Part shown: positions 8,774-10,584 of the stretch, piece by piece
Numbering within the stretch: position 1 is the first letter of the stretch
How the letters are laid out: every line of letters begins with the position of its first letter
Source of the DNA: Sneathiella sp.
GTDB taxonomy: Bacteria > Pseudomonadota > Alphaproteobacteria > Sneathiellales > Sneathiellaceae
Assembly: GCF_029233945.1 (NCBI RefSeq)
Contig: NZ_JARGOQ010000001.1
Span: forward strand, 166,816-209,780
Reading direction: 5' to 3'
Length of the DNA stretch: 42,965 nucleotides
Made by a program: the position numbers and the translations under genes
Notes under the pieces: generated by a model
Told to the model about the DNA's origin: nothing
The model's database searches: none
What the model saw: the letters and a program-made list of their open reading frames with translations, nothing else

Positions 8774-9859
<1,086 letters not shown>

Positions 9860-9887
9860 TCAAATTATTCTGCAATTATTCACTGCG

Positions 9888-9940
9888 GATATACTGATTC
9901 GGTCGATTCGCTGCGTCAATATATTTCGTTGAATCAGTAT
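9888..9940 (-). promoter_or_regulatory. putative methylation-sensing promoter of ccrM with GANTC inverted repeat
   Basis: The 107-bp rnhB-ccrM gap holds three GANTC sites at 9896-9900, 9905-9909 and 9931-9935. The outer two end the arms of a perfect 10-bp inverted repeat (9891-9900 and 9931-9940) separated by 30 bp. On the minus strand there is a -35-like TTGACG (9914-9919) and a TATATC (9888-9893) that fits the TANAWC part of the Caulobacter-type -10, but the spacing of 20 bp is too long for a standard promoter. Two GANTC sites fall between these boxes. In Caulobacter, GANTC methylation state controls ccrM transcription, so the same autoregulation is plausible here. Confidence 0.5.
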
Positions 9941-9966
9941 GTTAGAGAATAATTCTGAACTTTCGC

Positions 9967-10584
9967 TTAATCATCAGACAGGAGGGAGCGGATGGGGGCG
10001 AAACTTCGCCTATGTTGTGGTGTGATGCCGAATTCACGCAATCCCTTGCGGTGCCGTGCCGTGCCGTATCCGGCATTTTTCTCCCATTCGTACTGCGGAT
10101 AGACCTCTGCCAATGCGCACATTTTCCGATCTCGTGTCACTTTTGCCACTATCGAGGCGGCTGCTATGGAGAGGGAACGACCGTCGCCTCTAACAATCAA
10201 ACGGCTCGGAATGCCAAGTTTCGGGTCCCGGTTTCCATCGACAAGGGCGATGTCGGGACGGGTGGGAAGGGCCTCCATCGCGCGGCGCATGGCAAGCAGG
10301 CTTGCCTGCAGAATATTATGCTGGTCAATCTCCTGGACACTGGCTTCCCCGGTGCCGACAAACGATGTCGCAAAGATTGCATCGAATAGCGCTTCGCGTT
10401 TTGCCTTTGACAGCTTCTTGCTGTCCTGGATACCGTCCGGGATATTGTTTTGGTCAAGAATGACCGCTGCCGCGACGACCGGGCCGGCAAACGGGCCCCG
10501 GCCGACTTCATCGATACCTGCGACGCGCCCTGTTTCAAGCATCTCAAGGGATAAATCAGGGAATTTTGCAACTGCTCGGGACAT
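9967..10584 (-). CDS. rnhB: ribonuclease HII
   Basis: Endonuclease that cuts the RNA strand of RNA-DNA hybrids and removes misincorporated ribonucleotides (205 aa). Catalytic carboxylates are visible as Asp25-Glu26 in GIDEVGRGPFAGP, Asp116 in ALVDGN and Asp134 in VRGDGRSLSIAAASI. The conserved DSKKLS and AKVTRD segments are present, and the C-terminus has the usual KNAGYGTARH-type motif. Length is normal. The ATG at 10584 is preceded by GAGGGAG, slightly close to the start. It lies 26 bp after the radical SAM gene and upstream of ccrM, an arrangement I recognise from other alphaproteobacteria. Confidence 0.96.
   Translation of the reverse strand: MSRAVAKFPDLSLEMLETGRVAGIDEVGRGPFAGPVVAAAVILDQNNIPDGIQDSKKLSKAKREALFDAIFATSFVGTGEASVQEIDQHNILQASLLAMRRAMEALPTRPDIALVDGNRDPKLGIPSRLIVRGDGRSLSIAAASIVAKVTRDRKMCALAEVYPQYEWEKNAGYGTARHRKGLREFGITPQHRRSFAPIRSLLSDD

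Follow-up and report, generated by a model that had tools for sequence, protein, structure and literature searches.

The stretch of DNA analysed here (the window; 42,965 nucleotides of a Sneathiella sp. genome) carries on its minus strand the gene ccrM (8774..9859), which encodes a GANTC N6-adenine DNA methyltransferase of 361 aa and was assigned using Pfam and NCBIfam profiles together with identity to congeners. Specifically, the product matches the Pfam families N6_N4_Mtase (4.9e-65) and, at its C-terminus, RAMA (1.5e-17), and it aligns with the NCBIfam CcrM model at 4.4e-190 and 631 bits, the latter below the model's own cut-off of 830 bits, which is set for a Caulobacter-type protein. It is 82–96% identical to the CcrM proteins of Sneathiella congeners. 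By these sequence matches the product is a CcrM ortholog, with an N6-adenine methyltransferase domain, a C-terminal RAMA domain and a predicted specificity for GANTC. Its upstream neighbour on the same strand is rnhB (ribonuclease HII; 9967..10584, minus strand; Pfam RNase_HII, 2.6e-42), which lies directly upstream of ccrM in all Sneathiella loci compared. The two genes are separated by a gap of 107 nt (9860-9966).

The original prediction held that this gap contains three GANTC sites, the outer two of them joined by an inverted repeat, and the gap sequence bears out both statements. The sites lie at 9896-9900, 9905-9909 and 9931-9935, and the repeat is a perfect one of 10 bp (9891..9940, no strand; arms 9891-9900 and 9931-9940) with a 30-nt interior. 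Both features exceed chance in the window sequence alone: the probability of at least three GANTC sites in 107 nt is 6e-4 given the density in the window and 5e-3 given the base composition of the gap, the triplet is by far the tightest in the window (35 nt from start to start, vs 233 nt for the next), and a perfect 10-bp inverted repeat arises in 0.4% of gap shuffles. Across the window as a whole (1-42965) GANTC is depleted about 3-fold, with 65 sites observed and approximately 208 expected from dinucleotide composition.

We then compared the gap with those of 22 congeners, giving 23 Sneathiella sequences aligned on a TTGAC anchor (the ccrM loci of Sneathiella glossodoripedis and of a Sneathiella MAG are the named ones within the genus; one other genus of Sneathiellaceae was also extracted). 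All three GANTC sites are present in 23/23 gaps at near-fixed positions: the sites corresponding to 9905-9909 and 9896-9900 begin at exactly +10 and +19 from TTGAC, and the upstream site (9931-9935) shifts by one base either way. Invariant columns comprise TTGAC, the GA.TCG of the middle site (N is A in 22 sequences and G in one), and GA.TCA followed by the A and T of CAnnAT, while columns outside the conserved blocks are near random and carry little information. Upstream of TTGAC, the invariant columns (23/23) are TAA, CTGATTC and the second base beyond CTGATTC.

Read on the ccrM strand, the invariant columns form a sigma70-type promoter, TTGACG, 17 bp, CAnnAT, the last of these being CAGTAT in the window. 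The predicted −35 element TTGACG (9914..9919, minus strand) has an invariant TTGAC and a final G in 22/23 Sneathiella, and in the predicted −10 element CAGTAT (9891..9896, minus strand) the A at position 2, the A at position 5 and the T at position 6 are invariant in all 23. The original prediction had flanked the sites at 9896 and 9905 with TTGACG and TATATC; the former stands, whereas conservation gives the role of −10 element to CAGTAT and not to the latter. Since comparison with relatives identifies CAGTAT as the −10 element, the GANTC site at 9896-9900 (minus strand; coding-strand GAATC, template TGATTCG) overlaps that element rather than merely preceding it: the C that ends the site also begins CAGTAT. 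Counting from a predicted transcription start at 9884 (minus strand; +1, give or take about 2 nt), which is placed solely by the position of the −10 element in the promoter alignment and on which all positions relative to +1 depend, this third site spans about −16..−12, the second (9905..9909, minus strand; 23/23 Sneathiella) lies at about −25..−21 within the −35/−10 spacer, and the first lies at about −51..−47. The predicted start would give ccrM a leader of approximately 25 nt. In 23/23 Sneathiella, two of the three sites thus fall within the core promoter TTGACG-N17-CAGTAT, one in the spacer and one overlapping the −10 element. The first is held by an upstream element, TAAC-nnn-CTGATTCAACGAA (9923..9944, minus strand), the TAA and CTGATTC of which are likewise invariant in 23/23. 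The TAA begins 9 nt before the upstream GANTC and is also found class-wide; the base after it is C or G, with a single A (9941-9944, minus strand).

The symmetry of the repeat fared differently from the sites it joins. Perfect arms are found in only 8/23 Sneathiella, with 1–4 of the 10 positions differing in the other 15, and the interior measures 29, 30 or 31 nt across the 23. At one position of the right arm, 15 species have G, 7 have C and 1 has A, whereas the left-arm partner is C in all 23. The right arm consists of a GANTC site plus the −10 element, and the left arm is part of the separate upstream element, TAA[C/G]-nnn-[C/T]TGATTC-A. Given that the symmetry is not conserved and that changes in one arm are not mirrored in the other, we read the palindrome in the window as incidental to two elements that are each conserved in their own right. 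Loss in close relatives, which the original prediction had named as the outcome that would speak against it, is therefore what we found for the repeat and the opposite of what we found for the GANTC sites. Two other readings were considered and set aside: an RNA hairpin (the predicted fold of the gap has modest stability, z −1.77, and complementarity between the arms is not maintained) and a DnaA box, which the left element resembles only weakly.

We also looked for the layout outside the genus, using 172 Alphaproteobacteria genomes drawn evenly across the class. Of these, 122 had a strong CcrM match, and 100 ccrM upstream regions outside Sneathiella were taken. TTGAC-N14-GANTC was found in 41/100 of these regions, whereas block shuffles averaged 0.07 and never exceeded 1. 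The spacing is sharply defined, with 41 regions at k=14 in TTGAC-Nk-GANTC vs 0–3 at k=12, 13, 15 and 16, and a second, broad peak at k=3–5 (22, 13 and 10 of 100 regions) corresponds to the spacer site. Class-wide, A occupies −11 and T occupies −7 in 40/40 promoters each, a bias absent from other GANTC sites; these are the bases that matter most in a −10 element recognised by sigma70. When the class draw was combined with named genomes into 61 distinct promoters, 50/61 had an upstream GANTC 10–22 nt before TTGAC, with the consensus TAA[C/G]-nnn-TTGATTC-AAA, and 40/61 had all three classes of site. The N of the −10 GANTC (coding strand) is C or A in 58/61 of them vs 133/258 (133:125) of other sites (p=1e-11), and such an oriented preference fits a protein that would read the site in one direction. 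In the class set, GANTC occurs at 13.3/kb upstream of ccrM vs 2.3/kb within ccrM itself (first 250 nt). On the CcrM tree, whose branch support is low, motif-bearing genomes are widely spread and cluster more than shuffled labels do. In a first set of named genomes, Rhizobiales (Mesorhizobium, Phyllobacterium and Brucella relatives) mostly lacked the GANTC layout, which is consistent with the CtrA boxes reported for that order.

GcrA is a sigma70 cofactor that recognises methylated GANTC and promotes formation of the open complex via sigma2 (PMC7403470, PMC3667746), the region on which it acts at m6A promoters (PMC7403470). In Caulobacter, an extended motif, YGAKTCK, has been reported for activation by GcrA, with TGATTCG as its best form, although work in Brevundimonas did not confirm that it is required (PMC7987155). 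On the template strand the −10 site fits YGAKTCK in 23/23 Sneathiella and is exactly TGATTCG in 20/23, and 21/23 have a fitting spacer site. For the upstream site the match is limited to 1/23, so something other than GcrA may read it. The genome from which the window comes encodes gcrA (G000:C67:259592-259912, above the Pfam cut-off), and both the DNA-binding and the sigma-binding parts of Sneathiella GcrA match solved Caulobacter GcrA chains. Across the class, GcrA was undetected in 10/42 motif-bearing genomes, many of them drafts, both with Pfam and in a search with an alignment of 11 GcrA sequences. The corresponding figure for genomes without the motif is 9/59, i.e., no association (p=0.31) in a comparison whose absences come largely from draft genomes, and the CcrM tree offers only 1 supported independent pair for this association. 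GcrA was also undetected in 4/30 named genomes. Among the CcrM-bearing class genomes examined, about one in six has no detectable GcrA (G048, G157 and 17 others).

Taken as a promoter built from its product's own target, this layout recurs in the same fixed form across Alphaproteobacteria with one of the three sites fused to the −10 element, which suggests that CcrM probably controls its own production. The core idea of the original prediction, that CcrM methylates its own promoter, is strongly supported at the sequence level by the 23/23 conservation of the sites and by the class-wide layout. The reading we favour, to which we assign a probability of roughly 0.6, is that the Sneathiella promoter is methylated by CcrM and assisted by GcrA, and so would couple ccrM transcription to its own methylation state. 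In this reading, the CcrM target is built into the −10/−35 region of the sigma70 promoter (TTGACG, 17 bp, CAGTAT), with a third site near −50; CcrM would methylate all three sites, replication would turn them hemi-methylated, and the methylation state would then set promoter activity. GcrA would most likely read the methyl marks inside the promoter, as its motif suggests, and help RNA polymerase to open it. As to the sign of the feedback, we lean weakly towards ccrM expression being highest when the sites are hemi-methylated and damped after full methylation by CcrM, as modelled for Caulobacter, where hemimethylated DNA is described as the template for ccrM transcription and methylation as what switches it off (PMC2217572, PMC10073500). 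Alternatively, GcrA binds fully methylated probes best (PMC3667746), a preference which would favour the opposite sign, and the loop may instead be one of GcrA-driven positive feedback.

Several other explanations of the conserved sites need to be weighed against this one. The most serious is that control does not involve GcrA, and that m6A at −16..−12 and in the spacer directly alters the binding or opening of the promoter by sigma70-RNA polymerase, or is sensed by another reader; its simplest form would be auto-repression by CcrM. We consider this unlikely, albeit worth keeping in view, since a GANTC site overlaps the −10 element itself and most of the 10 motif-bearing genomes without detectable GcrA still carry the other GANTC sites. 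The congeneric G048 and G157, both without detectable GcrA, keep the spacer and upstream sites and have lost the −10 site. Against it, Sneathiella has a full GcrA together with −10 and spacer sites that match the motif for GcrA, and the absences of GcrA come largely from draft genomes. G095, for example, has no detectable GcrA but a congener of it does, meaning that some absences are probably assembly gaps, while G141, where GcrA was likewise undetected, is the only genome in its family. The layout may nevertheless work without GcrA in some lineages. The more specific proposition that, at this class-wide promoter, sigma70-RNA polymerase itself senses methylation of the −10-fused GANTC, with no part played by GcrA, seems to us somewhat more doubtful; if true, it would represent a minimal, self-contained CcrM feedback switch, which may predate GcrA control or outlast the loss of GcrA.

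It is also conceivable, though improbable, that GANTC is incidental, i.e., that the gap holds a promoter and an activator site whose recognition sequence happens to contain GANTC, with methylation playing no role. The upstream element TAA[C/G]-nnn-TTGATTC is indeed conserved beyond its GANTC, and methylation at this locus is predicted. However, GANTC appears at three distinct positions whose flanking bases differ, the spacer site remains GANTC even where its position and its N change, and the sequence is depleted elsewhere in the window. A CtrA-activated promoter as in Caulobacter and Rhizobiales, where CtrA controls ccrM (PMC2877005), with GANTC only modulating it, would account for the TAA[C/G] of the upstream element, which is part of a CtrA half site. 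Yet no Sneathiella gap contains TTAA-N6-8-TTAA or a relaxed full site, and a search for the box TTAA-N7-TTAA, strict or relaxed, found none in any of them, which makes this explanation very improbable. Equally hard to sustain is the suggestion, made in the original prediction, that the symmetric arms are bound by a dimeric methylation-sensing protein. The perfect 10-bp repeat in the window's genome and seven congeners, and its rarity among shuffles, speak for such a dimer, but the arms are imperfect in 15/23 with unmirrored changes and a spacing of 29–31 nt, and class-wide each of the two elements has a consensus of its own.

The GcrA-assisted reading has close parallels in Caulobacter crescentus. 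There, the GcrA/CcrM sigma70 promoters of ctrA (P1), mipZ, podJ (P2) and ftsZ likewise have CcrM sites in the −35/−10 region, with GcrA as methylation-dependent cofactor (PMC3667746, PMC7403470, PMC4287350), and promoters with GANTC in the −10/−35 region form one timing class (PMC4287350). The positions of the Caulobacter sites differ, being approximately −24 in podJ P2 and −28/−29 in ctrA P1 (PMC4287350), and in Sneathiella the target is ccrM itself, with three sites, one of them fused to the −10 element, in a fixed register that is conserved across the class. The Caulobacter ccrM promoter also shows transcription dependent on its own methylation, with two GANTC sites reported (PMC10073500, PMC2217572, PMC3973325), but it is activated by CtrA, whereas the Sneathiella gaps lack a full CtrA site.

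Adhikari et al. (2021) predicted ccrM to be a core GcrA target in Alphaproteobacteria, with the predicted GcrA control lost in Caulobacterales (PMC7987155), and our analysis likewise points to probable GcrA control of ccrM in many orders. Their model counted extended GANTC sites from −200 to +100 irrespective of position, and described no fixed geometry, −10 fusion or upstream element (PMC7987155); Brilli et al. tallied GANTC around cell-cycle genes but drew no conclusion about position, and reported CtrA boxes in Rhizobiales. In the open-access literature searched, we found neither the fixed −10 fusion nor the three-site layout described. Thus, ccrM as a GcrA target had already been predicted, while the fixed geometry appears to be new, turning a loose prediction into a base-resolved one. 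Caulobacter, where self-control of ccrM has been reported, is in this respect atypical, as it uses CtrA and has lost the predicted GcrA control of ccrM; the three-site layout marks the probable seat of ccrM control in many other Alphaproteobacteria. Genomes which bear the layout and have no detectable GcrA make the need for GcrA in reading CcrM marks directly testable.

Finally, the promoter with a −10-fused GANTC is essentially specific to ccrM and not regulon-wide. TTGAC-N14-GANTCANNNT is present in 24/24 Sneathiella genomes, with other hits amounting to about 10 in total, the level of the reversed-pattern control. The general class TTGACN{2,18}GANTC is not enriched in the window's genome (149 vs 133 in the reversed control). 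We therefore rejected a genome-wide promoter class, the general spacing being unenriched and the exact ccrM form rare elsewhere. An identical 29-mer matching the ccrM promoter pattern, TTGACTTAATGGTTGAATAGATTCAATCT, was found at G000:C71:9951-9979 and G021:C146:465-493, and in both genomes it lies approximately 5–6 kb from a second CcrM-like methyltransferase gene.
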